Below are positions 44,650-63,319 of a stretch of 64,000 bases of DNA, piece after piece. A model generated the notes under the pieces. It saw only the letters and a list, made by a program, of their open reading frames with translations, made no database searches and had not been told where the DNA came from. How positions within the stretch are numbered: position 1 is the first letter of the stretch; each line of letters opens with the position of its first letter. The stretch lies in the NCBI RefSeq assembly GCF_013371465.1, contig NZ_JABWDU010000003.1, positions 310,001 through 374,000 of the forward strand. The letters are read 5' to 3'. A program made the position numbers and the translations under genes. The DNA comes from Ensifer oleiphilus. GTDB taxonomy: Bacteria; Pseudomonadota; Alphaproteobacteria; Rhizobiales; Rhizobiaceae.

Positions 44650-44686
44650 GGCAGGCGCGCCAGGTCCATACGCGAAAGGAAAGACC

Positions 44687-46325: not shown

Positions 46326-46559
46326 ATGACGACGACGGTTACAGCTAAAGGACAGGTCACGATCCCCAAACCAGTACGCGACCTCTTGGGCATTGTGCCG
46401 GGCAGCAAGGTTGATTTCCGGCGCGCGCCGGATGGAAGCATTGTGCTCGTCCATGCCGCCAAAAAACAGCAGCCCAGCCGCTTCTCAAAACTGCGAGGGC
46501 ACGCCGGCAAGGGGCTGGACACGGCCGCGATCATGGCACTCACGCGTGGCGAGCCTTGA
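46326..46559 (+). CDS. AbrB/SpoVT-type antitoxin
   Basis: The 77-residue protein begins MTTTVTAKGQVTIPKPVRDL and continues LGIVPGSKVDF, the swapped-hairpin AbrB/MazE DNA-binding domain found in VapB antitoxins. The C-terminal third (SRFSKLRGHAGKGLDTAAIM) would wrap the toxin. Its stop overlaps the toxin's TTG start, so production is coupled. Antitoxins of this type neutralise the PIN ribonuclease and repress their own promoter. Confidence 0.88.
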   Translation: MTTTVTAKGQVTIPKPVRDLLGIVPGSKVDFRRAPDGSIVLVHAAKKQQPSRFSKLRGHAGKGLDTAAIMALTRGEP

Positions 46560-46966
46560 TATTCGTAGACACGAATGTTCTTCTTGACGTCGTGACCGAT
46601 GATCCGACATGGGCGGATTGGTCCATAGCGCAACTCGAAAATGCAAGTCTTGGGGGGACACTATGGATCAACGATATTGTCTACGCAGAACTGGCCGTCC
46701 GCTACGATCGGATCGAAGAAGTCGACGCGTTCCTTAATCAAGCCGGGTTAGAACTGGCACCAGTCCCGCGGGCGGCCCTGTTTCTGGCCAGCAAGGTTTT
46801 CACGCGATATCGCAAGGCAGGCGGAGCGAGGACCGGCGTTCTCCCAGACTTCTTCATCGGTGCGCATGCGGCCGTCAGCGGGCTTCCTTTGCTCACACGT
46901 GATGTTGGGCGCTATCGAACCTATTTCCCGAAATTGACATTGATTGCCCCGGATTTGCCGACCTAA
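46556..46966 (+). CDS. vapC: VapC-type PIN-domain toxin
   Basis: The 136-residue PIN-domain protein starts at a TTG that overlaps the antitoxin TGA. The acidic metal site is visible: Asp5 in IFVDTNVLLDVV, Glu in DIVYAELAVRYDRIEE and Asp in GVLPDFFIGAHA with Asp in LLTRDVGRY. Such proteins cut tRNA or rRNA when free of antitoxin. The pair borders a stretch of gene remnants, as often seen for such modules in accessory DNA. Confidence 0.88.
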   Translation: MIFVDTNVLLDVVTDDPTWADWSIAQLENASLGGTLWINDIVYAELAVRYDRIEEVDAFLNQAGLELAPVPRAALFLASKVFTRYRKAGGARTGVLPDFFIGAHAAVSGLPLLTRDVGRYRTYFPKLTLIAPDLPT

Positions 46967-47790: not shown

Positions 47791-48729
47791 TCATTTTACC
47801 CGGTTCGAACCAGGGCATGGCGCCGACATCTGCTCCTGTTGCCTCGCGACCCCAAGCAGCCACTTGTGAAATTTTTGCCCAAACGGCTTCTCCAGTGCAG
47901 CCCGATCCCATGCCAGGTAATAGCTTTCAGGCAGTTTCATGCGAATGTCGAAGGGCACGACCAGGCTTCCAGAGGCGATCTCATCCGTGATCATGGAAAC
48001 TTGCGCAAGAACAAACCCCCTGCCGTTTACGGCCGCGTCGATCGCACTGCTCGACAAGGTGAAGGAGAGGCCGGAAAACTTCTGGCCGCCATCGGCGTGC
48101 ACTAGGGCTGCCCAGTCGTTCCATTGCGGAGAAGCCTTGTAGTCCGCCTCCCATTCCACATGAAGGAGAGGAAATGTCAGGATATCGCGCGGCGTTTCAA
48201 GGCTGCGTCCGGCGATCAGCATCGGCGAGCAGGCAGGCACCATCCAGTCCGTGAACAGGGTGGCCACGTGCTCATGCACATAGGAGCGCCGACCATAGGT
48301 AATACGGAAATCCACTTGATCCGCACCGATGCGAGGCTCCTGCTCCTGCCCAAGAATGCGGACACTCGATTGCGGACAGAGCGTTTGCCAATCGAAGATC
48401 TTACGATTGACCCACTTGTTGGCGACTGACGTCAGCGCACTTAGAACGATGCTGGTCTCGTTCCTCGCACGGGTGAGGACGTTTGCTGCATGGGAGAGCT
48501 GCTGAAAGCCTTTCGCGACTTCGCGATAGTACAGCCGTCCCCATGAAGACAGTTCAACCCGTCGCCCGCGGCGCTCCAGCAATGTCAGGCCAAGACATTG
48601 CTCCAGGTTTCTTACCAGTTGGCTCACGGCGCCGGGTGAGACGCCGAGGTCCGCCGCCGCAGCGCTGACCGTGCCACATCGTCCGATCGCCTCAAAGGCC
48701 TGCAAGCCGCGCAAAGACGGGTTCGGCAT
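47791..48729 (-). CDS. LysR-family regulator (GcvA-like), divergent from Rieske operon
   Basis: The 312-residue protein has an N-terminal winged helix (PSLRGLQAFEAIGRCGTVSA, GVSPGAVSQLVRNLEQCLG) and a GcvA-type effector domain. The ATG at 48729 follows GGAG; an in-frame TTG at 48747 is less likely. It is divergent from the Rieske oxygenase gene. The 124-bp gap holds the perfect palindrome TTTAGA-AAA-TCTAAA. It is the probable activator of the 48.8-60 kb catabolic cluster. Confidence 0.88.
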   Translation of the reverse strand: MPNPSLRGLQAFEAIGRCGTVSAAAADLGVSPGAVSQLVRNLEQCLGLTLLERRGRRVELSSWGRLYYREVAKGFQQLSHAANVLTRARNETSIVLSALTSVANKWVNRKIFDWQTLCPQSSVRILGQEQEPRIGADQVDFRITYGRRSYVHEHVATLFTDWMVPACSPMLIAGRSLETPRDILTFPLLHVEWEADYKASPQWNDWAALVHADGGQKFSGLSFTLSSSAIDAAVNGRGFVLAQVSMITDEIASGSLVVPFDIRMKLPESYYLAWDRAALEKPFGQKFHKWLLGVARQQEQMSAPCPGSNRVK

Positions 48730-48760
48730 CGTAAAGCACTCCTTCAATCAGTCGCTCCAA

Positions 48761-48853: not shown

Positions 48854-49900
48854 ATGTTTCTCAAGAACGCCTGGTATGTCGCAGCCTGGGATCACGAAGT
48901 CGACCGCGAGTTGAAACCCGTCACGATGCTCGGCGAAAACATCGTCCTTTACCGCAAGCAGGACGGTAAGGCCGCCGCGCTCGAAAATGCCTGTCCCCAT
49001 CGCAAGCTGCCGCTCTCCATGGGGCGCATCAAGGGCGACGACGTCGAATGCGGCTACCATGGCCTCACCTTCGACTGTTCGGGCATCTGCACACGCGTTC
49101 CGGGAGCCGAGCGGATTCCGCATGTCGCCAAGGTGCGCTCCTACCCGATCCATGAGCGCTATGGCTTGCTTTGGGTCTGGATGGGAGATGCCGACAAGGC
49201 GGATCCGAAGGACATCTTTGAAGTCGAACACTTCGGCGACCCGGCTTGGGGCATCAATCGCGGCGAGTCAATGACGCTGAACTGCAATTACCTCTACATG
49301 ACGGACAACCTGCTTGATCCGTCCCATGTCGCCTGGGTCCACCAGTCGTCCTTCGCCAGTTCCGCCTGCGAAGAAACACCGCTTGAAACGACCGTGAAAG
49401 ATGACGGCGTCACCGTCTGGCGCTGGATGATCGATTCCGAACCGGCCCCATTTTATGCGCCCTTCCTGCAGTTCAAGGGCAACACCGACCGAAAGCAGCA
49501 CTACGAGGTGCGCTATCCGAGCAACGCGATCATCAAGGCGATCTTCGCGCCAGCCCACACCGGCGGAGAAGGCCGCGCGCTGCCTGAAAATACCTTTCTG
49601 ATGGACAGCTACAACTTCATGACGCCTGTCGATCAAAACCGGACCAAATACTACTGGTTCCAGATGCGCAACTTTGCGCCTGAGGACGTCAAGGTTTCCG
49701 AGAGTTTTGCCAAGTCCGTGCGCGGCGCCTTCGAAGAGGATCGTGTTGTACTGGAAGCGGTTCATCACGGAATGGCGAACCAGCAGACGCCAAACCTCGA
49801 CCTGAAAATCGACGTCGGCCCGATGCGCTTCCGGCGCAAGCTGGCTCAGATGATCGCCGCCGAGACGAAAGCCGATCCCGCCAGCGTCGCAGCCGAGTAG
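48854..49900 (+). CDS. Rieske non-haem iron oxygenase (VanA-like demethylase)
   Basis: The 348-residue protein has an N-terminal Rieske [2Fe-2S] domain with C47-P-H49 and C66-x2-H69 (ENACPHRKLPLSMG, ECGYHG), and a C-terminal catalytic domain with the iron site DNLLDPSHVAWVH (H158, H163). The start MFLKNAWYVAAWDHEVDREL matches vanillate O-demethylase oxygenases (VanA). Enzymes of this group remove methyl groups from O or N as formaldehyde. AAGGAGAGCGAA precedes the ATG. The reductase follows 12 bases later, and formaldehyde-oxidising genes lie in the same cluster. Confidence 0.9.
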   Translation: MFLKNAWYVAAWDHEVDRELKPVTMLGENIVLYRKQDGKAAALENACPHRKLPLSMGRIKGDDVECGYHGLTFDCSGICTRVPGAERIPHVAKVRSYPIHERYGLLWVWMGDADKADPKDIFEVEHFGDPAWGINRGESMTLNCNYLYMTDNLLDPSHVAWVHQSSFASSACEETPLETTVKDDGVTVWRWMIDSEPAPFYAPFLQFKGNTDRKQHYEVRYPSNAIIKAIFAPAHTGGEGRALPENTFLMDSYNFMTPVDQNRTKYYWFQMRNFAPEDVKVSESFAKSVRGAFEEDRVVLEAVHHGMANQQTPNLDLKIDVGPMRFRRKLAQMIAAETKADPASVAAE

Positions 49901-49912
49901 GGAGCGCTCCGG

Positions 49913-51013
49913 ATGCTCGATGCAGCCGCCTCGCGCTTCCGTCCCTTCGAAGTCATCTCGAAGGTCCGGGAAAGCGCCACCATCACCTCGTTCCGCCTTG
50001 CCCCACTCGAACGCCAGCACTGGCGGCCGTTCGAGGCGGGACAGTTCCTGACGATGCGTGTTCCCGATCGCAAGGGCGGGCATGTCCTGCGCAACTACAC
50101 CGTCTCCTCTTCCCCACGAGAAGAAGGAAGTTACCGGATCACTGTCAAGCGCGAGGCCGCACCATCGAGCAATGTGCCAAATGGCCTGAGTTCCTGCTGG
50201 CTGCATGACGAGATCGAGCCCGGTGCGGTCATCGAGATCGATCCGCCGCGCGGCGCCTTCAAGCTCGACAGCGCCAGTGCCCGGCCCGTCGTCCTTCTTT
50301 CCGGTGGCGTCGGGCTGACGCCGACGGTTTCGATGCTCGATGTGCTGGCGAAGGACAGCAACCGCCCGGTATGGTTCATCCATGCGTGTGACGGTGCAGC
50401 CGTCCACGCGCTGCGGGACGAGGTCGAACATCTCGCCGCTCTCCGCCCCGGCATCACCGTGCACTATTGCTACCGTTTCGCCGAAGAAGCCGATCGCAAG
50501 GTTGCCGACTGCCATTCAACAGGCTTCCTGACGCGCACCACGCTTCAGAGCCTCCTGCCGCTCGACGACTACGACTTCTACATGTGCGGGCCGCAACCCT
50601 TCATGCAGGCGCTCTACGGCATTCTGACTGGCTTCGGAGTGCGGAAGGAGCGCATCGCCTACGAGTTCTTCGGGCCGGCGAGCCTGTTGACGGAGGCAGC
50701 TCCGTCAACGCCACGATCGCAAATGGCCTTCTCCCCCAATTCGGTTATCGACGAGGAAGGCCCCTGCGTCGTCCTACAGAAATCCGGCATCAAACTTGCC
50801 TGGGACAGCACGAGCGAATCCATCCTCGCTTTCCTGGAAGCGCAGGGGATCGAGCCCGAATTCTCATGCCGCGCGGGCGTCTGCGGCACCTGCGAACAGG
50901 GCCTTGTCTCAGGTGAAGTCGACTACTTCGAGGAGCCTCTCGATCAAGTGCCGGACGACCGGGTGCTGCTCTGTTGCACCAGGCCGAAGTCCTCGATCGT
51001 GCTCGATCTCTGA
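49913..51013 (+). CDS. FAD/NAD reductase with C-terminal [2Fe-2S] ferredoxin domain
   Basis: The 366-residue protein joins an FAD domain (VLRNYTVSSSPREEGSYRIT; RxYS-type motif), an NAD domain (VVLLSGGVGLTPTVSMLDVL and FYMCGPQPFMQALY) and a plant-type ferredoxin with C-x4-C-x2-C in FSCRAGVCGTCEQG and a final Cys in VLLCCTR. It passes electrons from NADH to the Rieske oxygenase just upstream. The order resembles GbcB/stachydrine and related hydrolase-linked reductases more than classic VanB (FMN type), which may hint at an N-methyl substrate. Confidence 0.9.
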   Translation: MLDAAASRFRPFEVISKVRESATITSFRLAPLERQHWRPFEAGQFLTMRVPDRKGGHVLRNYTVSSSPREEGSYRITVKREAAPSSNVPNGLSSCWLHDEIEPGAVIEIDPPRGAFKLDSASARPVVLLSGGVGLTPTVSMLDVLAKDSNRPVWFIHACDGAAVHALRDEVEHLAALRPGITVHYCYRFAEEADRKVADCHSTGFLTRTTLQSLLPLDDYDFYMCGPQPFMQALYGILTGFGVRKERIAYEFFGPASLLTEAAPSTPRSQMAFSPNSVIDEEGPCVVLQKSGIKLAWDSTSESILAFLEAQGIEPEFSCRAGVCGTCEQGLVSGEVDYFEEPLDQVPDDRVLLCCTRPKSSIVLDL

Positions 51014-51072
51014 CTGCAAAAGACCGAATGGCCGTGGCGCCATCCTGATGTTCAAGCCTTGAAGGAAGATCC

Positions 51073-52182
51073 GTGACGAAACCGCTTCATACCGAGATCC
51101 CTCTCAATCCGCATGTGGCCGGCCTTCCGCCCTACAACGCCGGCATGAACATCGCTGTGGCGCGGCTGCAGAGCGGACGGCAAGACATCGCAGCGCTTGC
51201 CAGCAACGAGAACCCGGATGGCTGTTCGCCGGATGTCGCGGCCGCGCTCGCAAACCTTGAGCCTTCGCGCTACTCCGACCATGCCTGCACGGCGCTGCGG
51301 GCGGCCCTCAGCCAGAGGCTCGGCGTTACCTCCGACCGGATCGTCGCCGGTAACGGCTCGGAGGAAATGATCGCCGCCATCTGTCGCGCCGTGCTGCGTC
51401 CTGGTTCCGTCGTGGCAACGGTCTGTCCCGGCTTCGGGCTGCACGAGATCGAGGCGCTTGCCAATGGCGCCAGGGTCGAGAAGGTCGGCATGCGGCCAGA
51501 ACTGGATTTCGACATCCCGGCGATGACCGCCATACTCGAGCGTGCGCCTGAAATTTTTTTCCTCTCGTCCCCGTCGAACCCGGTCGGTCCGGCGCTCGAT
51601 CGTGAGGGGCTGACGCGCATTCTCGCGGCTGTCAGTCATGAAACGCTTCTGGTGCTCGACGAGGCCTATTTCGAGTTCACGAACGAAGACACGCCCGATG
51701 CGCTTGCCGCGCTCTCGGCGACGAACCTCGCCTGGGTGATACTGCGAACATTTTCCAAGGCCTATGGGCTTGCAGGGTTGCGGGTCGGCTATGCGGTCAC
51801 CTCCGATGTCCGGCTGGCGCGGGCCATGAGCGCCGCCAAGACGCCGTTCAACGTCAATGCCGCCGCGCAGGCGGCGGCCGTCGCCGCGCTCAACGACGAA
51901 GCCTGGATGCAGTCTTCGGTCGCAAGGTTGAAACGCGAGCGGGCGCGTGTGGCCGACGCCGTCGCCGCCATGGGGCTTTCGGCGGCCAGGTCGCAAACGA
52001 ACTTCCTGTTCATCGACGTTGGGCTGGAGAGCCGGACCGCGTTCGATCACTTCCTGGCAAACGGGATCATCGTCAAGCCATGGAAGGAGGAAGGCTATGG
52101 CACCTTCATTCGCGTGACGATCGGCACCCCCTTGGAAAACGACCGCTTTCTCAAGGCGCTTCGCGACCTTCTGAGGACGTGA
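51073..52182 (+). CDS. HisC-like PLP aminotransferase
   Basis: The 369-residue class I/II aminotransferase resembles histidinol-phosphate aminotransferases: LASNENPDGCSPDVAAALAN, VAGNGSEEMIAAICRAVLRP, VLDEAYFEFTNED and the PLP Lys in LRTFSKAYGLAGLRVGYAV. It starts at a GTG after GAAGGAAG. In a catabolic cluster, and without other his genes, it is unlikely to serve histidine synthesis. It more likely transaminates the amino acid released by the demethylase or peptidase, or a histidine/aromatic analogue. Confidence 0.85.
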   Translation: MTKPLHTEIPLNPHVAGLPPYNAGMNIAVARLQSGRQDIAALASNENPDGCSPDVAAALANLEPSRYSDHACTALRAALSQRLGVTSDRIVAGNGSEEMIAAICRAVLRPGSVVATVCPGFGLHEIEALANGARVEKVGMRPELDFDIPAMTAILERAPEIFFLSSPSNPVGPALDREGLTRILAAVSHETLLVLDEAYFEFTNEDTPDALAALSATNLAWVILRTFSKAYGLAGLRVGYAVTSDVRLARAMSAAKTPFNVNAAAQAAAVAALNDEAWMQSSVARLKRERARVADAVAAMGLSAARSQTNFLFIDVGLESRTAFDHFLANGIIVKPWKEEGYGTFIRVTIGTPLENDRFLKALRDLLRT

Positions 52183-52249
52183 CGGCCTGCGTCACCCTTC
52201 AAGCCAAGACACAACAAGGGGCGAAGCACGACCCCACGGGAACGAACAC

Positions 52250-54262
52250 ATGAGCGGAAACGCAAGCCTGCACAGAGTAAACCGGGAGCCCCATCGCATG
52301 TCCCCTTCAGCGCCGTCCGGACTTTTCGCCGGTGACTTTTCCGCCTTGCGCGCCCGATTTCTCGCCGCCGCGCGTACCGCTGGCGCGAGCCTGGTCGAAT
52401 ACCTGCACCCATTGCACGGGCCGAAGGGAGAGCGCCTGGCGACCGACGTTGCCTATCTCGGGCGCAACGATGCCGAAAAGCTCCTGGTGCTGATTTCCGG
52501 AACGCATGGCGTCGAAGGTCCCTTCGGCTCGGCGTGCCAGACCGCGTGGCTTTCACAAAACTCCCCCTGGAAACTTCCTGATGATACCGCCGTTCTGGCG
52601 ATCCACCTCATCAACCCCTGGGGCACGGCATGGGCGCGCCGGGTCAACGAAGACAATGTCGATCTCAACCGCAACTTCATCGACTGGCGAAAGGCACCGC
52701 CGAAGAACGAACGCTATGCCGCATTGCACGGGGCTCTGGTCTGTCGCGCCTGGGACGGCCCGGAGCGTGACGCAGCCATTGCGGCATACGAAGACGCCAA
52801 GCGGCGGCTCGGTGGCTACGCCGGCATCGCCCCGATTGTGGAAGCCGGTCAATACGACTTTCCGGACGGCCTGTTCTACGGCGGCGACGGTCCGGTCTGG
52901 TCCAACCGAACCCTGACCGAGATCCTGTCGACATTCGCACAGAAGGCCGCCGAGGTTGTCGTCTTCGACCTGCACACTGGTGCCGGGCCTTACGGCTACC
53001 CCGCCCTCCTCTCGGTCGCCGATAGCGAGCACGCCGGTTTGGAATGGGGCCGGCGCATCTTCGGCCCCGCACTCTCGGTCGTCGTGACCGGCGAAAATGC
53101 GACGACGCATACCGGCATCGCCGCGACCGCCACCGGTTACGTGTCGGCCGCCGTGCGCGCCGCGCTGCCGAAGGCGCGCGTCCTGCCGCTTGTCGTAGAA
53201 TGCGGCACCCTCGACGGCGCGACTGTCTCGGATGCGGTCCAGGCGGACAATTGGCTTCACCTGTTCGGCAAAATCGATACGCCGCTCGGCGACAGGATAA
53301 AGAAGGACCTGTGCGCCGCCTTCATTCCCGAAGACGCCGACTGGCAGCGCGCCTGTCTTGAGGCATCTTTGCGTCACTTCGACCGCGCCTTTGACGATCT
53401 CAAGTCCGTCGGCGGCGCGCAACCCGAAAAGTCCGTCCCCGCCGCAGCCGCTGTTATCCTCGTCGCCCATCCGGAGGCTGGCGGTCCAAGGCTTGACCAG
53501 AGACCGGCGATCGAGGTGCACGACATCCACAAACGCTTCGGTCCCCTCGCCGTGCTCAACGGCGTTAGCGTCTCTGCGCAGCCGGGCGAGGTCGTGTCGA
53601 TGATCGGCTCTTCCGGCTCGGGAAAAAGCACCTTCCTGCGCTGCATCAACCTGCTCGAACAGCCGAACGATGGGCGCATCGTCATCGATGGTGAAGAAAT
53701 CCGGATGAAGAAGACACCGGACGGCAGTGCAGCACCTGCCGACATCCGGCAGGTCGAGCGCATCCGCTCGCGCGTCGGCATGGTGTTCCAGAACTTCAAT
53801 CTCTGGCCCCACATGACGGTCCTTGAAAACATCGTCGAGGCGCCGATGCACGTCCTGAAAGAGGAGCGACAGGCAGCTGCCGATCACGCCCACGCGCTGC
53901 TGAAGAAAGTCGGCCTTTCCGACAAACATGCCCAATACCCCGGTCAACTGTCCGGTGGCCAGCAGCAGCGTGCCGCCATTGCCCGTACGCTTGCCATGCG
54001 CCCGAAGCTCATCCTCCTCGACGAGCCCACCTCCGCGCTTGATCCGGAGCTGGTTGGCGAGGTCCTGCGCGTCATCCGGCAGTTGGCCGAAGAAGGAAAT
54101 ACGATGATCCTCGTGACGCACGAAATGCAGTTCGCGCGAGAGGTCTCGCACAAGATCCTCTTCCTCCACCAGGGAAAGGTGGAGGAAGAGGGTGCCCCGG
54201 CGGATGTCTTCACCAACCCACGCTCCGAACGCATGCGCCAGTTCCTGGCCCGGACGCTCTGA
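52250..54262 (+). CDS. DUF2817 M14-like peptidase fused to an amino-acid ABC ATPase
   Basis: The 670-residue protein joins two complete domains in one open frame. Residues about 25-385 are DUF2817, a zinc carboxypeptidase-like fold: H86 and E89 (GTHGVEG), N140-R141 (DLNRNF), H242 (FDLHTGAGPYG) and E317 (VVECGTLDG). Residues about 420-670 are a HisP/OccP-type ATPase with Walker A GSSGSGKST (453-461), Q514, LSGGQQQR (568-575), Walker [14 protein letters not shown] and H624. The linker 386-419 has no Met, so separate translation is unlikely. The binding protein and permeases follow. The ATG at 52298 (MSPSAPSG) is an alternative start. This fusion is unusual. Confidence 0.9.
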   Translation: MSGNASLHRVNREPHRMSPSAPSGLFAGDFSALRARFLAAARTAGASLVEYLHPLHGPKGERLATDVAYLGRNDAEKLLVLISGTHGVEGPFGSACQTAWLSQNSPWKLPDDTAVLAIHLINPWGTAWARRVNEDNVDLNRNFIDWRKAPPKNERYAALHGALVCRAWDGPERDAAIAAYEDAKRRLGGYAGIAPIVEAGQYDFPDGLFYGGDGPVWSNRTLTEILSTFAQKAAEVVVFDLHTGAGPYGYPALLSVADSEHAGLEWGRRIFGPALSVVVTGENATTHTGIAATATGYVSAAVRAALPKARVLPLVVECGTLDGATVSDAVQADNWLHLFGKIDTPLGDRIKKDLCAAFIPEDADWQRACLEASLRHFDRAFDDLKSVGGAQPEKSVPAAAAVILVAHPEAGGPRLDQRPAIEVHDIHKRFGPLAVLNGVSVSAQPGEVVSMIGSSGSGKSTFLRCINLLEQPNDGRIVIDGEEIRMKKTPDGSAAPADIRQVERIRSRVGMVFQNFNLWPHMTVLENIVEAPMHVLKEERQAAADHAHALLKKVGLSDKHAQYPGQLSGGQQQRAAIARTLAMRPKLILLDEPTSALDPELVGEVLRVIRQLAEEGNTMILVTHEMQFAREVSHKILFLHQGKVEEEGAPADVFTNPRSERMRQFLARTL

Positions 54263-54340
54263 CAGCCCGCCGTTATTACCCGTCCGGGGCTCTCCCTGGA
54301 ACGGAAGTCAACAAGAATGCTCAGCAAGGGGAACCAAAAC

Positions 54341-55138
54341 ATGAAGCTGAAAAGTCTATTGCTCGCCACGTTCTTCGCCACCGGCCTTAATACGGCCCAC
54401 GCAGCCGAGGGGGAATTGTCGATTGGCACGGAGGGCGAGTATCCGCCGTGGAGCATGGCTGACGCCGCCGGCAACGTTACCGGTTTCGACGCGGATGTCG
54501 GAAACCTGCTCTGTGCCAAACTGGAAATGAAGTGTCACTTCGTCGTGCAGGCCTTCGACGGCCTCATTCCGGCGCTGAAAGCCAAACGATTCGACATCAT
54601 CATTTCCGGCATGTCGATCACCGCCGAGCGCAAGAAGCAGATCAACTTCTCGGTTGGCTATGCGGAACTCGCCAACATGTTCGTCGTCAAAAAGGATTCC
54701 AATCTTGCCGGCGTCAAGGACATCGAGACGCTGCTGACATCGCTCGACGGTCGTACGGTCGGTGTCCAGGCCGGTACGACCCATGCGCACTTCATGGAAA
54801 AGCGGGCCTCATCCGCCGTCCTGAAGACCTATGACACGCTCGACCAGATGCAGATCGACCTCGCCAGTGGCCGCGTCGAGGCCGCATTTGCAGATTCGTC
54901 CGCCCTTCAGGACTTCCTGGGGCGCCCCGACGGCAAGGACTTCCAGTTCGTCGACGTCAAGGTGCTGAGCACCTTCGACCCGACGCTCGGCGAGGGCATC
55001 GGCGTCGGCATCGCGCAGGAGAATACCGAATTGAAGGCTCGTATCGACAAGGCACTCTGCGAATTGGTCGCCGACGGCTCGATCGGCAAGGCAAGCCAGA
55101 CCTGGTTCAAGACGGATATCTCCCGTCCCTGCCAGTAA
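54341..55138 (+). CDS. Amino-acid/opine ABC transporter binding protein
   Basis: The 265-residue family 3 binding protein has a signal peptide (LKSLLLATFFATGLNTAHAA) and EGEYPPWSMADAAGNVTGFD, the ligand-pocket pattern of octopine/lysine-arginine-ornithine binding proteins, then KRFDIIISGMSITAERKKQI. AAGGGGAACCAAAAC sets the ATG at 54341. It feeds the permease pair downstream and the ATPase domain of the fusion protein upstream. A nested hairpin follows it. Confidence 0.9.
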   Translation: MKLKSLLLATFFATGLNTAHAAEGELSIGTEGEYPPWSMADAAGNVTGFDADVGNLLCAKLEMKCHFVVQAFDGLIPALKAKRFDIIISGMSITAERKKQINFSVGYAELANMFVVKKDSNLAGVKDIETLLTSLDGRTVGVQAGTTHAHFMEKRASSAVLKTYDTLDQMQIDLASGRVEAAFADSSALQDFLGRPDGKDFQFVDVKVLSTFDPTLGEGIGVGIAQENTELKARIDKALCELVADGSIGKASQTWFKTDISRPCQ

Positions 55139-55150
55139 CGGGAACCGCAC

Positions 55151-55197
55151 CCTCCCGGGAGAACGAACGACCGGAAGGTCGATCCTTTCTCGGGAGG
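55151..55197 (+). terminator. Nested hairpin between binding protein and permease
   Basis: CCTCCCGGGAGA (55151-55162) pairs with TTTCTCGGGAGG (55186-55197), about 12 pairs with two G-T wobbles. Inside its loop CGACC-GGAA-GGTCG forms a second hairpin. No T-run follows, so mRNA stabilisation of the binding-protein segment or partial attenuation is likely. Confidence 0.55.
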
Positions 55198-55236
55198 CTT
55201 CATCCGACAGGACAAGGCATAGGTTGGGCGTGTTCG

Positions 55237-55944
55237 ATGGAACTTGGACTTTGGCAGGTGTGGGAAGGTGGCTGGATATCGGCAATCCTGCGCGGGGCGG
55301 CAATCACCATCGCCCTCGGCATGGCGAGCATGGCCATTGGCGTCGTCATCGGCGTTGGCTGCGGCCTGATTAAATGGGCCCGTATTTTTCCGCTGATGCT
55401 TGTCGTGGACTTCTACACGTCGGTCGTGCGGGGCGTGCCGGAACTTCTGATCATCTATCTCCTCTTTTTCTCCTCCGTCGAGTTCGTGGCCCAAGTGGCC
55501 GCGGCATTCGGCTACGAGGGACTGGCCGGCAACGGTTATGCCTTCACCATCGCGGTCGTCGCGATCGCCGCCATATCGGGCGCCTATTCGACCGAAGTGG
55601 TGCGAGGGGCACTCGCCGCCATTCCGAGCGGGCATATCGAGGCGGCGCGGGCACTCGGGATTCCGGGCAGACGGATCTTTCACCGCATTATCGCGCCGCA
55701 GATGCTGCGGATAGCTGTTCCGGGCATGAACAATGTCTGGCAGACCACGATCAAGGACACCGCGCTTGTCTCGGTGGTGGGCCTGCAGGAGTTGATGCGC
55801 GTCGCCTTCGTCGGGGCCGGTTCGACCCGCCATCCCTTCATTTTCTATCTCATCGCCGCTCTCGTCTACCTCGCCATCACCTTGGTCAGCCAGGGTGGTT
55901 TCGACTGGATCGAACGCCGTCTGCGCCCCCGTACGAGGAAATAG
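55237..55944 (+). CDS. Amino-acid/opine ABC transporter permease (HisQ/OccQ type)
   Basis: The 235-residue permease has about five helices, with TSVVRGVPELLIIYLLFFSS near the first third and the EAA loop GHIEAARALGIPGRRIFHRI. It is one half of the channel for the amino-acid-like ligand. It is followed three bases later by the second permease. Spacing of 98 bases after the binding protein is occupied by the nested hairpin. Confidence 0.92.
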   Translation: MELGLWQVWEGGWISAILRGAAITIALGMASMAIGVVIGVGCGLIKWARIFPLMLVVDFYTSVVRGVPELLIIYLLFFSSVEFVAQVAAAFGYEGLAGNGYAFTIAVVAIAAISGAYSTEVVRGALAAIPSGHIEAARALGIPGRRIFHRIIAPQMLRIAVPGMNNVWQTTIKDTALVSVVGLQELMRVAFVGAGSTRHPFIFYLIAALVYLAITLVSQGGFDWIERRLRPRTRK

Positions 55945-55947
55945 GTC

Positions 55948-56634
55948 ATGGATCTCGAACTCGTTTTCCTCGCGGTTCCAACGCTTGCCAAGGGACTGTG
56001 GCTCACCGCCATACTGACGATCGCTTCGGTCGCCATCGGCTTTAACCTCGGCCTGGCGCTTGCCGTCATGCGCCTGTCGAAGAACAGCGCCGTCAGCGGC
56101 TTTGCCAAGGGTTACAGCACCGTCTTTCGCGGGACGCCGCTGCTGGTGCAACTCTTTCTCTTCTACTACGGCCTCGGTCAGCTTTCCTTCGTGCGAGACA
56201 ACGCCGTGCTCTGGTGGATCATCGGCGACGGTGTCCATTGCGCGGTCATGGCACTCGCGCTCAACACGGCGGCCTATACGTCGGAGATCCTGCGCGGTGG
56301 GCTCATATCCATTCCGGGAGGGCTCGTCGAAGCAGCACAGGCCTGCGGCATGTCGCGGCTGCTGCGGTTTCGCCGGATCACGTTTCCGCTTGCCATCCGC
56401 CAAGCGCTGCCGGCCTACGGCAACGAACTCGTCCTCGTCGTCAAGGGAACGAGCCTCGCCTCCACCATCACCGTCCTGGAGATCACCGGCCATGCGAAGC
56501 GGCTGATGAGCCAGACCTATGCAATCCTCGAAGTATTCGCCATCGCCGGCCTGCTCTACCTGCTGATCAACCTGGTGCTGATCACGCTTATCCGGCTCTT
56601 GGAAGCCCGTCTCACACGCCACCTGCCCCGATAG
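55948..56634 (+). CDS. Amino-acid/opine ABC transporter permease (HisM/OccM type)
   Basis: The 228-residue permease has STVFRGTPLLVQLFLFYYGL, LALNTAAYTSEILRGGLISI and the EAA loop GGLVEAAQACGMSRLLRFRR. It completes the heterodimeric channel. In histidine and opine importers the ATPase, binding protein and two permeases are all encoded together, as here, but the ATPase is part of the peptidase fusion. The formaldehyde dehydrogenase gene follows after 49 bases. Confidence 0.92.
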   Translation: MDLELVFLAVPTLAKGLWLTAILTIASVAIGFNLGLALAVMRLSKNSAVSGFAKGYSTVFRGTPLLVQLFLFYYGLGQLSFVRDNAVLWWIIGDGVHCAVMALALNTAAYTSEILRGGLISIPGGLVEAAQACGMSRLLRFRRITFPLAIRQALPAYGNELVLVVKGTSLASTITVLEITGHAKRLMSQTYAILEVFAIAGLLYLLINLVLITLIRLLEARLTRHLPR

Positions 56635-56683
56635 GCCGCAGATCGCCTATCTGTCTGAAAAAATTAAGAGAAAGAGAAAATTC

Positions 56684-57811
56684 ATGGATGTACGCGCCGC
56701 CGTCGCCGTTCAGGCAGGCAAGCCGCTGGAAGTGATGACCGTTCAGCTCGAAGGCCCGCGGGCCGGAGAAGTGCTGATCGAAGTCAAGGCAACGGGCATC
56801 TGCCACACCGACGATTTCACGCTGTCGGGCGCGGATCCCGAAGGTCTGTTCCCGGCAATCCTCGGCCATGAGGGTGCCGGCATCGTCGTCGATGTCGGAC
56901 CGGGCGTGACCTCGGTCAAGAAGGGCGATCATGTCATCCCGCTCTATACGCCCGAGTGCCGCTCCTGCCCGTCCTGCCTGTCGCGCAAGACCAATCTGTG
57001 CACCGCGATCCGCTCGACCCAGGGCCAGGGCGTCATGCCGGACGGCACCTCGCGCTTCTCGATCGGCAAGGACAAGATCCATCACTACATGGGCTGCTCC
57101 ACCTTTGCCAATTACACCGTGCTGCCGGAGATCGCGGTTGCCAAGGTCAACCCCGACGCGCCCTTCGACAAGATCTGCTACATCGGCTGCGGCGTCACCA
57201 CCGGCATCGGCGCCGTCATCAACACCGCCAAGGTCGAGATGGGCGCAACCGCGATCGTCTTCGGTCTCGGCGGCATCGGCCTCAATGTCATCCAGGGTCT
57301 GCGCCTTGCCGGTGCCGACATGATCATCGGTGTCGATCTCAACAACGACAAGAAGGCCTGGGGCGAGCGCTTCGGCATGACCCACTTCGTCAACCCGAAG
57401 CAAGTCGGCGAGGACATCGTGCCCTACCTCGTGAACATGACGAAGCGTGGTGCCGACCAGATCGGCGGCGCCGACTACACCTTCGACTGCACCGGCAACA
57501 CCAAGGTGATGCGCCAGGCGCTCGAAGCCTCGCATCGCGGCTGGGGCAAGTCTGTCGTCATCGGCGTTGCCGGCGCCGGCCAGGAAGTCTCCACCCGTCC
57601 GTTCCAGCTTGTCACCGGCCGCAGCTGGATGGGCACCGCCTTTGGCGGCGCACGCGGCCGCACCGACGTGCCCAAGATCGTCGACTGGTACATGGAGGGC
57701 AAGATCGAGATCGATCCGATGATCACCCACACCATGGCCCTCGAAGACATCAACAAGGGCTTCGAGCTGATGCACTCCGGCGAAAGCATCCGTTCGGTCG
57801 TGCTATACTGA
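56684..57811 (+). CDS. adhC: S-(hydroxymethyl)glutathione dehydrogenase / class III alcohol dehydrogenase
   Basis: The 375-residue zinc enzyme oxidises the glutathione adduct of formaldehyde. Catalytic zinc ligands lie in GICHTDDFT and GHEGAG, and the structural zinc loop CRSCPSCLSRKTNLC is complete. The nucleotide motif is FGLGGIGLNVIQG. FSIGKDKIHHYMGCSTFANY is typical of class III enzymes (FrmA/FlhA). AAGAGAAAGAGAAAATTC precedes the ATG. In this cluster it would remove formaldehyde released by the Rieske demethylase, together with gfa downstream. Confidence 0.95.
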   Translation: MDVRAAVAVQAGKPLEVMTVQLEGPRAGEVLIEVKATGICHTDDFTLSGADPEGLFPAILGHEGAGIVVDVGPGVTSVKKGDHVIPLYTPECRSCPSCLSRKTNLCTAIRSTQGQGVMPDGTSRFSIGKDKIHHYMGCSTFANYTVLPEIAVAKVNPDAPFDKICYIGCGVTTGIGAVINTAKVEMGATAIVFGLGGIGLNVIQGLRLAGADMIIGVDLNNDKKAWGERFGMTHFVNPKQVGEDIVPYLVNMTKRGADQIGGADYTFDCTGNTKVMRQALEASHRGWGKSVVIGVAGAGQEVSTRPFQLVTGRSWMGTAFGGARGRTDVPKIVDWYMEGKIEIDPMITHTMALEDINKGFELMHSGESIRSVVLY

Positions 57812-57927
57812 GCAAGTCTTCAAGACCGCATCAGGAATGCAATCCGTGCATCGCATCGTCGGCCTCCGGCCGACTGCGCCAGTGATCGGCCGCGCATCAA
57901 GCGTCGGCGATGAAGGAGGAGAAACCC

Positions 57928-58509
57928 ATGCCAAGCATTGCCATACATCCAACACTCGACAGTGGGTTCAAGGCGACCGACGCTGCCTTTTCGGGCGGAA
58001 CGCTCGTCTGCAACTGCACAAGCAAGCCCGTAAAAGTTCGGGTCAAAAGCGACATCGCCCACAACCACGCCTGCGGCTGCACCAAGTGCTGGAAGCCCGA
58101 AGGTGCCGCATTCTCCGTCGTTGCCGTTGCCCCGACGGAAAATATCGAGGTTCTCGAAAACGGCGACAAGCTCGCTGTCATCGACCCGGCCGCCCTCATC
58201 CAACGGCATGCCTGCAAGGAATGCGGCGTGCACATGTACGGCCCGGTGGAACGCGATCATGCGTTCAAGGGTCTTTCCTTCCTGCATCCCGAACGGTTCC
58301 AGGAAACGGGATGGGCGAAGCCGGGCTTTGCCGCCTTCGTCTCATCGATCATCGAAAGCGGCTATGATCCGGCAAAGATGGACGGCGTGCGCGCGCGCCT
58401 CAGAGACCTTGGCCTCGAACCCTATGACTGCCTCAATCCCGTTCTGATGGATCTCATCGCCACCTGGACGGCAAAGAAGAGTGGCGCTCTCAAGACGCAC
58501 GCGGCCTGA
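57928..58509 (+). CDS. gfa: Glutathione-dependent formaldehyde-activating enzyme
   Basis: Gfa (S-(hydroxymethyl)glutathione synthase) speeds the condensation of formaldehyde with glutathione. The 193-residue protein shows the cysteines of its zinc sites: [21 protein letters not shown] and [12 protein letters not shown], and [36 protein letters not shown] precedes the ATG at 57928. It lies 116 bases after adhC, so the two steps of formaldehyde disposal are made together with the demethylase. Confidence 0.94.
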
Positions 58510-58568
58510 ACAAGCCTGGTGCACACAACCTCTCTCCGTTCTCGACACCTACCAACAGGTAACATCGC

Positions 58569-59987
58569 ATGGATCGCCTACGGCCCGAATTCAAAGACGA
58601 AATTCGCAAGATTGTTGGTGACGGAAATCTCAAGGACGGAGAGGCCCTTTCATCGATCGACCACGGCGTCGCACCGGAAAATCTCGGCGCGGGCGCCGTG
58701 GTCCTTCCGGGAACAACCGGCGAGGTTTCCGCGGTCGTCAAATGCTGCCTCGCCAGCGGAGTTCCGCTCGTCACCCATGGGGGACGAACTGGTCTCGTCG
58801 GCGGTGCAATGTCCAGGCCGGGCGAACTCGTGCTTTCGACTGCCCGCCTCAACCGGATCCTGCATGTTTCGCCAATCGAGCGCGTTGCCGTGGTGGAGGC
58901 CGGCGTGACGCTGCAGGCGCTGCAGGCGGCGGCCGGAGAGCATCGGCTTGAAACAGGGATCGACTTGCCGTCGCGCGGTTCGGCGACGATCGGAGGAATG
59001 GCGTCAACGAACGCCGGCGGCATCGCGGCCTTCCGGCACGGGGTCATGCGGCATCGCATCCTTGGCCTGGAGGCCGTGCTTGCGGATGGCTCCATCTATT
59101 CCGACATGACACGGGTGGTAAAAAACGCCGCCGGCTATGATCTGAAGCATCTGTTCGTCGGGGCCGAAGGCACACTCGGCATCATCACGCGTCTTGCCGT
59201 CAAACTCGAACCCCAGCCCCTTGCCACCGCCACCGTCCTCTTCGGCCTCCCGTCTGTGGACGCCGCGCTCGAGACGGTCGGCCGAGGGCTCGACGCGAAG
59301 TATGGTCAACTGCGAGCGGCAGAAGCAATCTGGAACACATATTTCCGCCTGACATCAGGCCATCATCGCTGGTCAGTCACCGACTACAGTGCCGATCATC
59401 CGATAAACCTTCTGGTCTCCCTGGGCGGGGCCGAGGAGGAAGCGCTGCAATTGGAACTTGGACGCATCTACGAAGACCTCATCGAGGATCACCCCGACGC
59501 CTCGGCGGTCATCGCGTCGTCCGTCGCGCAGGAGACAGATCTTTGGCGGTTGCGCGAGGACACAGACCTCATCTACCGAGAACACCCTGGCGCACCGTCC
59601 TACGATGTCTCGGTCCCTCTTTCGAAAATCGAGACTTATCTCGACCGCTGTCTTGCGGGCTTGAAGGAAGTCGATGTGGCCTTTGATCCCTATGTCTTTG
59701 GCCATCTTGCCGACGGGAACCTCCACATCGTCCTCAACGCGGCCGGTCGAGATGTTCCAAGCGAAAAGGCAAGAGCCGTCGAAACTGTGCTGTACCGGGA
59801 CATCGCTGCAATCGGCGGATCGTTCTCCGCCGAGCACGGGATCGGCCTCAAGAGAGTCCAGTCGCTGTCAGCCATTTCAAACCCGGTGAAAGTGGCGCTG
59901 ATGCATCGGGTCAAGGACGCGCTCGACAGATCTGCGCTCCTCAACCCCTGCAAGGTCTTACATACAGCCGCCGATTTCGACCGGTGA
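58569..59987 (+). CDS. FAD-binding oxidase (GlcD/D-lactate dehydrogenase type)
   Basis: The 472-residue flavoprotein has an FAD_binding_4 domain (PGTTGEVSAVVKCCLASGVP, THGGRTGLVGGAM, LPSRGSATIGGMASTNAGGI, DLKHLFVGAEGTLGIITRLA) and a FAD-oxidase C-terminal domain (DPYVFGHLADGNLHIVLNAA, GGSFSAEHGIG). Members oxidise glycolate, D-lactate or other D-2-hydroxy acids. As the last gene of the demethylase cluster it may oxidise a hydroxy acid made from the transaminase product. AGGTAACATCGC precedes the ATG. Confidence 0.9.
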   Translation: MDRLRPEFKDEIRKIVGDGNLKDGEALSSIDHGVAPENLGAGAVVLPGTTGEVSAVVKCCLASGVPLVTHGGRTGLVGGAMSRPGELVLSTARLNRILHVSPIERVAVVEAGVTLQALQAAAGEHRLETGIDLPSRGSATIGGMASTNAGGIAAFRHGVMRHRILGLEAVLADGSIYSDMTRVVKNAAGYDLKHLFVGAEGTLGIITRLAVKLEPQPLATATVLFGLPSVDAALETVGRGLDAKYGQLRAAEAIWNTYFRLTSGHHRWSVTDYSADHPINLLVSLGGAEEEALQLELGRIYEDLIEDHPDASAVIASSVAQETDLWRLREDTDLIYREHPGAPSYDVSVPLSKIETYLDRCLAGLKEVDVAFDPYVFGHLADGNLHIVLNAAGRDVPSEKARAVETVLYRDIAAIGGSFSAEHGIGLKRVQSLSAISNPVKVALMHRVKDALDRSALLNPCKVLHTAADFDR

Positions 59988-60461
59988 CCCGCAAAGAACC
60001 ACCGCGCCACCGCCTAGAGCCTGGCGGTTCCGCATCCGCATCATCGGCCAACCATCGCCGACAGTTCGAGACGTGCTTCTTCGGTCTGCCGCATCAGCAA
60101 TTTGCGCAGTCGCGGGAAAGCCTCGTTCCTGGATTAGATACACGTCGATCCGGCGATCGCCTCGTATCAGCACGAAAAATCTCGGCTCTCGTCGGCTGCT
60201 TGTTTCCTTTGGTGCGGGCGGCCTGGTCAGTCGAGCATCGCGCCTTTGGATGGGCGATCTCGTTGCCCCGCTTGCCGCGTTATCGACCAGGCAAACTCCA
60301 AGCTGAAGTTGATTGACATTTCGACATTTGGGGGTGGCACGGCACTGACGCTGCAGATCGATAACGTGAGAACTTTGCCTCAGTTCATCGACCTGCGAGA
60401 GTGGTCGCGGTATTCGAGTAGCGATACACTCGCGACCTCTTGGGTCTCAGAGGGAAATCAC
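59988..60461. other. Intergenic before the cyclase; possible minus-strand remnant
   Basis: No intact gene is seen. On the minus strand a protein-like tail EAFPRLRKLLMRQTEEARLE, LSAMVGR ends at about 60050, but its frame is broken upstream, so it may be a relic. TTGACA near 60314 is a possible -35 box for the cyclase gene. Confidence 0.35.
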
Positions 60462-62378
60462 GTGCGCTGGTCGAAGCCTCTAAGATTGCATCTCAGCGTG
60501 CTGGTCGCGACACTGCTGCTGTGCATTTCGATTCCATTGATCTGGATGGCGTTTAGTCACGGCCGCGAAGCGGCGATCGTTGCAGGCGAGAAGCAGATGC
60601 GGCAGATGAGCCTGCGTCTGGTCGAGGGTTACAAATATGCGTTGGCAGGAGGATACGAGGCCGTAGCCGTTGCCTCCACCCTGCAGCACATCGCCTCTCG
60701 TCCACCCCTCGAGCTGGAAGAAAAGCAGGCATTCTTCCTTGAGGTCCTTCGAAACGTTCCGAATGCGACGAGCATGCTGGCCGGCTATCCCGACGGATCC
60801 TACATCCAGGCAATCAACGCCGCCAATCCTTATGTCCGAACAGCGCTTTCGGCGCCCGACGGCACAGCTTTTGCGATCAGAATCGTGGCCCATGAAAATG
60901 CTGGGAAAATCGAGATCATGCGGTTCCTCGATTCCGGTGGCCGCTTCATCGGAGAACGCCGCTCCGAAGGAACCACATTCGATGCGCGACAGCGTCCCTG
61001 GTATCGTTCGGTGCTGCAGCATCAGAAGCCTGTTTCAGTGGGCCCCTTCGTCAGCGGAACGTTGAAGGTGCCGACCCTCACGATTGCAGCGCCCATGAAG
61101 GACAACGGCCAGATCGCGGTCGGTGTGAACATACACCTGGAGACTGTCAGCCGGCTGCTCGACGCGCGCGAGATATCGCCGCGTGCCCGCAGCTACATCC
61201 TCGATGAACAAGACGGACTTGTGGCACATTCTGACCCGGCAATGATGAGCAGAATACTGGGCCTATGGACGCAACGCGGCGAGGCCGACGATGGGGCGGC
61301 AAAGACTTTGGACCGAACCGTCGACACAGTGATCCGGCTCCGCCGAGACGCAAAGCTCACAAAAGGAGAGCTTGCACGGTTCGATCTCGACGGTGAGCCC
61401 TATCTTGTCGAAATTGCTCCAGTCACCTTCTCGGACCTGTTCAAAGGCACGTCCGTCGCCGTCGTCGTGCCGTTCCACGATCTTGTCAGCCAGGCAAACA
61501 GACAGCTCGCGCGCAACGTCATGATGGCTGCGATCTTCGTTATCGCAGGCGTCGGTGCGTCGATTGTTCTCGCGCGCCTGATCAGTGCCTCTCTCTATCA
61601 GCTTGCCGCCGAAGCGCGAAAGATCGGGGATCTGGATTTCGCCGGAAAGGGAACGTCGCCCTCCTGGATCAGTGAGATCAATACGCTCGAGGGTGCGCTC
61701 GCAGCCTCGCGGCGTGCCATAGCTCAGTTTGCCCTCTACGTTCCCAGGGAAGTGGTCCGACGGATCGTCGACCCCGCCGATACCTCGACGAAGGCGGCTC
61801 GGCAGGACGTGACAGTCCTGTTCACCGACATTCGCGACTTCACCACGATTTCCGAACAGCACCCGCCCGAAGACGTCGTGGAGATCCTGTCCGCCTACTT
61901 CGAGCTGCTGAACCAGATTGCCGAGCGCCACCACGGCACGGTCGTTCAATATCTCGGCGATTCCATTTTCGTCATGTGGAATGCGCCCATCAGAGATGCT
62001 GATCACGTCGCGTCCGGTTGTCGCTGTGCGCTCGCCATGAGCGTCGCTGTCGACGAACTGAATGAACGCAACCGGGAGATCGGCCGTCCCGAATTGAGAA
62101 CCCGGTTCGGTTTGCATACCGGGCAGGCGGTCGTCGGCAGTTTCGGTGCAATCGCACGGCAGCAATACACAGCCATGGGCGATACGATCAACGTCGCGTC
62201 GAGGTTGGAAGGCCTCAACAAGGAGTTCGGAACGACCATCCTTGCAAGCGCCGCAATCCAGCATGTCGTTGCGGATGAATTTGCGTTCCGTCCGCTCGGG
62301 CTGATGAAAGTGAAGGGACGGATGGAAGCGGTGGAAGTCTACGAGCTGGTACAAGCCAGGCCCCGTCAACCTGGATAG
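60462..62378 (+). CDS. Membrane adenylate/guanylate cyclase (class III) with Cache-like sensor
   Basis: About 638 residues from the GTG at 60462, which follows AGAGGG; longer in-frame starts add a stretch unlike the family. A first helix (about 8-31), a periplasmic Cache-like domain (about 32-345, with ARQRPWYRSVLQHQKPVSVG), a second helix (VMMAAIFVIAGVGASIVLAR) and a HAMP-like linker precede a class III cyclase domain. Metal Asp residues lie in LFTDIRDF and YLGDSIF; transition-state Asn/Arg in TINVASRLEGL. The position normally occupied by the ATP-selecting Lys is Gln (VVQYLGD), so nucleotide preference is uncertain. It converts an external signal to cAMP or cGMP. Confidence 0.88.
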   Translation: MRWSKPLRLHLSVLVATLLLCISIPLIWMAFSHGREAAIVAGEKQMRQMSLRLVEGYKYALAGGYEAVAVASTLQHIASRPPLELEEKQAFFLEVLRNVPNATSMLAGYPDGSYIQAINAANPYVRTALSAPDGTAFAIRIVAHENAGKIEIMRFLDSGGRFIGERRSEGTTFDARQRPWYRSVLQHQKPVSVGPFVSGTLKVPTLTIAAPMKDNGQIAVGVNIHLETVSRLLDAREISPRARSYILDEQDGLVAHSDPAMMSRILGLWTQRGEADDGAAKTLDRTVDTVIRLRRDAKLTKGELARFDLDGEPYLVEIAPVTFSDLFKGTSVAVVVPFHDLVSQANRQLARNVMMAAIFVIAGVGASIVLARLISASLYQLAAEARKIGDLDFAGKGTSPSWISEINTLEGALAASRRAIAQFALYVPREVVRRIVDPADTSTKAARQDVTVLFTDIRDFTTISEQHPPEDVVEILSAYFELLNQIAERHHGTVVQYLGDSIFVMWNAPIRDADHVASGCRCALAMSVAVDELNERNREIGRPELRTRFGLHTGQAVVGSFGAIARQQYTAMGDTINVASRLEGLNKEFGTTILASAAIQHVVADEFAFRPLGLMKVKGRMEAVEVYELVQARPRQPG

Positions 62379-62590: not shown

Positions 62591-63319
62591 TCAAACGCCG
62601 CGGCGATTGCCCCACAACAGGACATGCAACTGCGGCAACACCCGCGCATCGAACCATTTGTCGCCGGTCACCTTGTCGACCAGCCAGAGCATGCGGTTCA
62701 TGATGCCGTCCACATCCACTGTCGCGCTGTCGTCTTCCGGCGGTGGTGGCGTGTGGTTTCCCGGCTGCAGGTAGACGGGCAGCGCCGGGTATCTCCGCGC
62801 CATTTCTTTGGCATAGGCATAGTCACGATCATCGAAGACGACGATCTTGAGCACCGTCATCGGCCCGCCGGCGACCATCGAAAGACAGTCGTCCAGTCTT
62901 GCAAAGTCGGTTTCCATCCCGCTCGATGGCGGCTTCGGGCTGAGGACAAGCACGTCGAGGCTGGCGAACCAATCCCTGGCGACGCTGCCCTGCGTCTCCA
63001 GCGCAAAGCGATAGCCCTCTCTGTGGCCGCGATCGATCAGCGGGCCGAGCGGCTGGATGGCGGGGTTGCCGCCTGAAAGCGACACGGTGAGCGGCACGCC
63101 GCCGGAGAGCCGTTTGACCCTGCTCCAGACGTCGTCGACCGACATCGGCCGCCACTCTTCGCGGTATTCGGTGTCGACGGCGTGCAGCGTATCGCACCAG
63201 GAACAACGATAGTCGCAGCCGCCAGTGCGCACGAAAACTGTCGGTTGACCGATCAGCACCCCCTCGCCCTGGATCGTCGGCCCGAAGATCTCGCTGACGC
63301 GGATCGCGGCACCGGTCAT
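62591..63319 (-). CDS. queE: 7-carboxy-7-deazaguanine synthase
   Basis: QueE is a radical SAM enzyme of queuosine (and 7-deazaguanine) synthesis that turns 6-carboxytetrahydropterin into 7-carboxy-7-deazaguanine. The 242-residue protein starts with [20 protein letters not shown] and has the cluster motif CDYRCSWC (C-x3-C-x2-C) and [26 protein letters not shown] and the tail [14 protein letters not shown] are typical. Its ATG overlaps the queD stop, so the genes are coupled. It is the last gene of queC-queD-queE. Confidence 0.95.

Follow-up and report, generated by a model that had tools for sequence, protein, structure and literature searches.

The stretch of DNA analysed here (the window) comprises 64,000 nucleotides of Ensifer oleiphilus (positions 310001-374000 of contig C26 in genome G000, whose total size is 6.76 Mb). 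It carries a cluster of ten genes that begins with a Rieske oxygenase gene at 48854 and ends with a GlcD-like gene at 59987. All ten genes lie on the + strand with intergenic gaps of 3-98 bases, and a gene for a LysR-type regulator is oriented divergently (Table 1). The nearest named relatives of the Rieske gene belong to Ensifer. Genes were called from open reading frames combined with domain and family searches against curated cut-offs. These calls recovered everything that an earlier sequence-only reading of this DNA had named in the cluster, namely the Rieske oxygenase and its reductase, adhC, gfa, the importer, the HisC-like and GlcD-type enzymes and one LysR, with the ten genes on the same strand. 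Two of its details required revision. The peptidase domain that it listed is present (DUF2817), but instead of forming a separate protein it is fused to the importer ATPase in a single polypeptide of 670 residues; and the binding protein, which it placed at 54341-55138, is indeed a member of SBP_bac_3, but its start is given here as 54317.

Table 1. Features of the Rieske oxygenase cluster (positions are those of the window).
Feature	Position	Strand	Basis
LysR-type regulator, GcvA-like subfamily	47791..48747	-	frame and family searches
Inverted repeat TTTAGA-AAA-TCTAAA	48761..48775		between LysR and Rieske genes
VanA-type Rieske oxygenase	48854..49900	+	Rieske and VanA_C domains
FAD/NAD(P)H/2Fe-2S reductase partner	49913..51013	+	FAD_binding_6, NAD_binding_1, Fer2
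HisC-like class I/II aminotransferase	51073..52182	+	TIGR01141
DUF2817 metallopeptidase-like domain fused to amino-acid ABC importer ATPase	52250..54262	+	single frame
Periplasmic solute-binding protein, family 3 (SBP_bac_3)	54317..55138	+	domain search
ABC permease 1, HisQ/ArtQ type	55237..55944	+	domain and family searches
ABC permease 2	55948..56634	+	domain search
AdhC, S-(hydroxymethyl)glutathione dehydrogenase	56684..57811	+	TIGR02818 above curated cut-off
Gfa, S-(hydroxymethyl)glutathione synthase	57910..58509	+	TIGR02820 above curated cut-off
FAD-linked D-2-hydroxyacid dehydrogenase-like protein (GlcD/D-LDH/D2HGDH superfamily)	58569..59987	+	family search, solved relatives

The regulator gene is listed with a TTG start codon; an in-frame ATG 18 bases downstream is a likely start. 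The pattern of the inverted repeat in the divergent intergenic region, TTTAGNNNNTCTAAA, has a single occurrence in the window and none in 100 shuffles. It was retained in all 12 aligned rows (the window and 11 hand-chosen loci), taking the form TTTAGTTTATCTAAA in the Mycoplana locus L022. This repeat is probably the operator of the LysR-type regulator, as predicted from the sequence.

The cluster was compared with loci of other organisms that were fetched from named genomes via the Rieske gene alone, using an alignment of 20 sequences, and of which the best 80 of 590 confirmed were kept. Genes were counted over these 80 loci by tblastn with identity thresholds of 40-75%, depending on the gene; contig ends truncate many of the loci, and absences mentioned below refer to the bases available. 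A LysR gene of at least 40% identity was found in 62 of the 80 loci, the reductase in 61, the HisC-like aminotransferase in 50, DUF2817 in 44, orthologs of the solute-binding protein (SBP) and permeases in 39, and the GlcD-like gene in 38. AdhC was present in 12 loci and Gfa in 8; 14 loci, L033 and L034 among them, had one or both. Since the set recurs around loci that were fetched through the Rieske gene, it is an inherited unit and not a product of chance.

The Rieske protein scores well above the cut-offs for both the Rieske domain (PF00355, 77.7 bits, cut-off 20.3) and VanA_C (PF19112, 151.3 bits, cut-off 23.5). For Ring_hydroxyl_A, a catalytic domain that we take to be the mark of quaternary-ammonium Rieske oxygenases of the CntA/GbcA/Stc2 type, the score was 20.7 bits and thus under the cut-off of 24.9. 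Residues C47, H49, C66, H69, D155, H158, H163 and D296 are invariant in the alignment of 20 Rieske sequences; we take the first four to be the ligands of the 2Fe-2S cluster, and the others presumably form the mononuclear iron site. The predicted structure model has a mean pLDDT of 73.4, and the protein search scored 7999 candidates, with 120 of 6550 matches listed. Among solved structures the best two matches were an unnamed Rieske protein and, next, dicamba O-demethylase (144 bits); the carnitine oxygenase CntA matched weakly (31 bits). This ranking, together with the VanA_C kind of the protein, argues for a substrate methylated on the ring nitrogen in preference to one methylated on N-alpha, and the pi and tau positions of the ring appear to fit the evidence alike.

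Further oxygenase genes were seen at some of the loci. The Paraburkholderia loci L077, L082 and L086 contain a second Rieske gene (∼41% identical in L077 and L082), which in L077 and L082 is adjoined by another reductase-like gene. A gene for a PhyH-type dioxygenase recurs close to the Rieske gene in L037, L081, L085 and L088, and the L088 member matches PF05721.

Both formaldehyde genes are assigned above their curated cut-offs (AdhC, TIGR02818, 580.7 bits against 543.95; Gfa, TIGR02820, 310.2 bits against 234.55). No S-formylglutathione hydrolase was found within the cluster, the rest of the genome not having been searched for this enzyme. The two remaining enzymes are placed less precisely. 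The aminotransferase scores just above the cut-off for TIGR01141 (284.5 against 276.55 bits) and under that for PRK05166 (421.9 against 540), and the GlcD-like protein is under the glycolate oxidase equivalog cut-off of TIGR00387 (232.5 against 567.9 bits), its nearest solved relatives being a putative oxidoreductase, D-2-hydroxyglutarate dehydrogenase and D-lactate dehydrogenase.

In the fusion protein, DUF2817 occupies residues ∼26-370 and the ABC importer ATPase, for which HisP is the nearest family, residues ∼420-669. The fusion was found in 38 of the 80 loci and an unfused DUF2817 in 6. Both domains were also present in all 120 proteins listed of 1695 database matches to the fusion (one marked partial), a search whose length filter favoured fused proteins. 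The DUF2817 domain is predicted to adopt an M14-carboxypeptidase-like fold, and H86, E89, H242, E317 and N140-R141 are kept in at least 97% of 45 rows; from the pattern and from general knowledge, we take the HxxE motif and the further His to be zinc ligands, the Glu to be the general base and the Asn-Arg pair to bind a carboxylate. Searched by sequence against solved structures, the domain gave no significant match (best E 0.41); an unfused relative matched PF24827 weakly (30.6 bits, cut-off 25). The domain probably serves the hydrolysis of a conjugate, as judged from the predicted fold.

The importer had been described as opine-type in the sequence-only reading. The nearest solved relative of the SBP is indeed the nopaline-binding protein (174 bits), but the pocket of the SBP retains the residues by which the lysine/arginine/ornithine-binding protein (LAO) holds the head group of an amino acid: R77 and D161 (LAO numbering) are present in 40 of 40 rows, which represent the window and 39 loci scoring above 250 bits, weaker SBPs having been examined separately. 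D161 is the acidic partner of the alpha-amino group, which the nopaline-binding protein does not have. The pocket is otherwise LAO-like except for E11, G70, Q117 and H122. The conservation of R77 and D161 suggests a pocket that suits a free alpha-amino acid. As a separate observation, L032, L039, L054 and L061 have a peptide-type ABC importer (with an SBP_bac_5 match in L054) and a GlcD-like gene (47-56% identity) near the Rieske gene.

Clustering of the other genes found at the Rieske loci brought out genes for histidine utilization (hut). This ORF-based clustering sometimes took frames on the wrong strand, and clusters 19 and 24 were excluded. In a tblastn count, hut genes turned up at 21 of the 80 loci, with hutH or hutU at 18 of these, and for each of hutH, hutU, hutF, hutI, hutG and hutC representatives score above the curated cut-off. 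In two Paracoccaceae loci, L033 (Pseudorhodobacter) and L034 (Gemmobacter), the entire gene set of the window adjoins hutF-I-H-G-U in one stretch, which comprises hutF, hutI, hutH, hutG, hutU, adhC, gfa, LysR, Rieske, reductase, HisC, GlcD, DUF2817-ATPase, SBP and two permeases; adhC and gfa sit between hutU and LysR. In the Mycoplana locus the Rieske protein is 91-92% identical and shares a supported clade of 15 rows with the window protein, and its gene is flanked by hutF, hutI, hutH, hutG, hutU and hutC. In genome G214 (L110), the Rieske gene starts 4 bases past the hutU stop codon, at the end of a hutI-hutH-hutG-hutU series with overlapping frames. Read by eye, the tree has hut-linked members spread over many branches, with long branches for L110-L113 and L115 that call for caution. 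The hut link may therefore go back a long way, and the rhizobial clusters without it may be derived, as far as these sequences indicate. CoA-transferase-like and acyl-CoA-dehydrogenase-like genes (named by eye) also recur beside the Rieske/hut loci L022, L031, L035 and L036.

Since co-location with hut genes could have been general to VanA-type or Rieske genes, we ran a control on 385 genomes drawn evenly from the class. The queries were the Rieske protein (no more than 5 candidates scored in each genome), VanA_C and hutU (no more than 3). The draw contained 69 Rieske places at E ≤ 1e-50, of which 6 were 52-100% identical to the window protein and 63 at most 43%. A hutU gene lies on the same contig at a distance of at most 15 kb in 4 of the 6 family members (G214, G102, G273 and G312) versus none of the 63 distant relatives (p = 1.7e-5, assuming independence; G214 and G312 share family f49). 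Of these 63 places, 36 are in genomes with hutU and the other 27 in genomes without a hutU match. VanA_C identified 92 places in the draw, and the 4 within 15 kb of hutU were the same 4, all belonging to the 52-100% group. These coordinates were compared by eye, many of the genomes are drafts, and the line at 52% was drawn after the gap had been seen. A fifth family member, G100 (L115), carries HutH and HutC genes no more than 5 kb from its Rieske gene, in a neighbourhood that also includes a GlcD-like gene and an amino-acid importer; the sixth is the unlinked gene of the window. Overall, hutU was present in 96 of the 385 genomes and in each of the 4 that match the Rieske protein at E ≤ 1e-130.

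The genome of the window itself encodes hutH (749 bits) and hutU (979 bits) above cut-off, with hutI and hutG adjoining, on contig C32, which is not the contig of the cluster. Both hutH and hutU were found in all 9 Rieske-positive genomes (of 61 searched), and likewise in Rieske-negative genomes of the same genus. Two further loci of the own genome, L116 (contig C22) and L117 (contig C29), hold a second HutU-like gene (696 bits, 50% identical to the HutU query) and a weaker HutH-like match (461 bits, below cut-off) beside HutF- and HutC-like matches; these genes belong perhaps to another imidazole-type pathway.

From the computed gene families, conserved set, Rieske-hut linkage, pocket conservation, fusion and predicted fold, we infer every substrate and reaction of the following scheme. 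With moderate confidence, we favour the view that these genes form an operon for the breakdown of histidine methylated on a ring nitrogen (pi or tau), possibly including its conjugates and its alpha-keto and alpha-hydroxy forms. A Rieske gene that ends a hut operon, and formaldehyde genes nearby in 14 of the 80 loci, are together best read as pointing to a histidine-producing demethylase. The SBP and permeases would import the amino acid, and the Rieske oxygenase, fed by its reductase, would hydroxylate the N-methyl group, such that the methyl is lost as formaldehyde and L-histidine is formed. Gfa and AdhC would convert the formaldehyde via S-hydroxymethylglutathione to S-formylglutathione. 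The histidine would enter the Hut pathway encoded elsewhere in the genome, and should be usable because of the hutH, hutU, hutI and hutG genes on C32. The DUF2817 domain on the ATPase would split a peptide-like conjugate whose carboxylate is free, for instance a methylhistidine dipeptide. Finally, the GlcD-like and HisC-like enzymes would lead from (methyl)imidazolelactate over (methyl)imidazolepyruvate to (methyl)histidine. The roles of these two are the weakest part of the scheme, and both enzymes look accessory because some hut-linked loci (for example L110 and L112) show neither. The sequence-only reading had called the pathway complete. A methylated amino acid, its demethylation and the disposal of formaldehyde do fit, but the cluster is not complete by itself, with the Hut genes on another contig. 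Among the substrates it had put forward, the hut linkage in relatives favours N-methylhistidine and disfavours stachydrine and methoxy-aromatic amino acids.

More tentatively, we propose that a so far undescribed N-methylhistidine pathway extends over Alphaproteobacteria and Burkholderiales, that Hut is repeatedly accompanied by the Rieske N-demethylase as an accessory enzyme, and that one branch fused a carboxypeptidase-like hydrolase to the importer ATPase, where it would cleave a conjugate on entry.

Several observations weigh against a methylhistidine operon. No hut genes adjoin the cluster in the window or the further Ensifer loci fetched (L010-L013), and 59 of the 80 loci show no hut gene, including the Burkholderiaceae loci L077, L079, L082 and L084-L086 and all Mesorhizobium loci except L035. 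Of the 21 hut-linked loci, L035, L061 and L067 have a hutC-type repressor only, and HutC is assigned in L039, L061 and L081 at 35-44% identity. In the window's genus, hutU is present in each of the 16 genomes searched, and the Rieske gene in 7 of the 15 besides the window's own; co-occurrence within the genus is therefore uninformative. The linkage indicates a histidine-related substrate but says nothing of where the methyl group sits or, taken alone, of whether it is removed. In 66 of the 80 loci neither of the formaldehyde genes AdhC and Gfa was seen, and the conversion of methylhistidine to histidine does not require HisC or GlcD. After dicamba demethylase, the next solved relatives of the Rieske protein are the hydroxylases SxtDIOX (85 bits) and SxtT (79 bits), above the N-demethylase NdmA (64 bits). 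Another hut-linked binding protein of relatives has R77 but a Ser at D161, and ligands may thus differ between branches. Lastly, the pocket of the SBP points to a free amino acid, the fused domain to a conjugate.

This last point bears on the rival that fares best, according to which the imported primary substrate is a conjugate, such as anserine or balenine (beta-alanyl-methylhistidine) or an N-acetyl-, gamma-glutamyl- or beta-aspartyl-methylhistidine, that DUF2817 cleaves on entry, the rest of the pathway being the same. The fused hydrolase is as such a rival would have it, but R77 and D161 in all 40 rows suit a free alpha-amino and alpha-carboxyl group, and anserine and the N-acetyl forms have no free alpha-amino group; we consider this version unlikely, if worth keeping in view. 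The low frequency of AdhC and Gfa (just 14 of the 80 loci) and the presence of SxtDIOX and SxtT among the nearer solved relatives would suit a different enzyme, a monooxygenase acting on the ring or side chain of another imidazole compound, with no demethylation and with AdhC and Gfa incidental. Both formaldehyde genes are, however, within the window operon, and in L033 and L034 they separate hutU from LysR, which makes this reading improbable. We rate lower again the removal of N-alpha methyls by the Rieske enzyme from hercynine, N-alpha-dimethylhistidine or ergothioneine-derived compounds. These, too, would presumably lead to histidine and Hut, but the protein is a VanA_C member that falls short of the Ring_hydroxyl_A cut-off and resembles dicamba demethylase far more than CntA, and the SBP retains the alpha-amino partner D161. 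Least probable of all is a methylated amino acid other than a histidine derivative, such as stachydrine, an O-methyl aromatic amino acid or N-methyl-lysine. The gene content alone, the lysine/arginine/ornithine/opine family of the SBP and the 59 loci without a hut gene would permit such a substrate, but the recurrence of hut linkage on many branches of the tree speaks against it.

The methylhistidine operon favoured here shares features with several known systems. VanA/DdmC-type Rieske O-demethylases, which act on vanillate and dicamba and release formaldehyde as a by-product, have the same Rieske and VanA_C domains and an adjacent FNR-type reductase gene; unlike them, the window family is hut-linked in relatives, and its identity to the 63 distant relatives of the control draw does not exceed 43%. 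NdmA and NdmB N-demethylate caffeine and methylxanthines at a ring nitrogen with release of formaldehyde, much as proposed here, whereas the match to NdmA is only that noted above and the substrate class is another. The Hut pathway is the proposed downstream route, with hutC, hutF, hutI, hutH, hutG and hutU beside the Rieske gene in relatives; to our knowledge, the described pathway begins at histidine and has no demethylase. The importer resembles those for nopaline/octopine and LAO/HisJ in its SBP_bac_3 protein, two permeases and an ATPase nearest HisP, and differs in the fused DUF2817 and the four deviating pocket residues. M14 metallocarboxypeptidases and AstE-AspA deacylases are comparable in predicted fold, zinc-site pattern and the weak PF24827 match of the unfused relative, but the window domain is cytoplasmic, located on an importer ATPase, and belongs to a sequence family of unknown function. 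We know of no rhizopine, stachydrine, carnitine, caffeine or mimosine route with this gene set.

Consistent with the statement in the sequence-only reading that it knew of no described pathway with exactly this gene set, a literature search, whose coverage was mostly without subscription papers and included no preprints, found among the papers listed no bacterial gene for N-methylhistidine breakdown and no bacterial methylhistidine demethylase or catabolic cluster; a search on DUF2817 found nothing on topic. Each part is of a known kind; what seems new is the way the parts are combined, the substrate proposed for them and the fusion. As for a source of the substrate, one paper describes histidine methyltransferases as known in yeast and mammals, reports that Arabidopsis seeds make and accumulate pi-methylhistidine, and mentions other plant reports only from barley calli and seashore paspalum (PMC10285387). 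Methylhistidine could thus reach the soil. If the proposed function is correct, the Rieske oxygenase would be the first candidate enzyme for N-methylhistidine breakdown, and there would be a testable reason for the presence of a Rieske gene in some hut operons. The fusion of importer ATPase and hydrolase would couple uptake to first processing in one protein, and DUF2817 would gain a functional setting.

Other features of the window lie on both sides of the cluster. Just downstream (60246-62378, +) is an adenylate/guanylate cyclase with a Cache sensor domain. Upstream, an aldehyde dehydrogenase and a class III aminotransferase form a pair (43153-46060, +). A beta-alanine route via this aminotransferase (44579-46060), which would be apt for anserine, was considered and rejected, with no match in 89 loci at E 1e-10. 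The region 36067-41779 (-) contains adjacent genes for a luciferase-like monooxygenase, an aldehyde dehydrogenase, a flavin reductase and a PucR-type regulator, and resembles a catabolic locus with a two-component flavin monooxygenase. A small frame at 46556-46966 (+) is PIN-domain-like by eye, and the frames at 62591-63807 (-) are, also by eye, QueE- and QueD-like (queuosine/preQ0 precursor genes).

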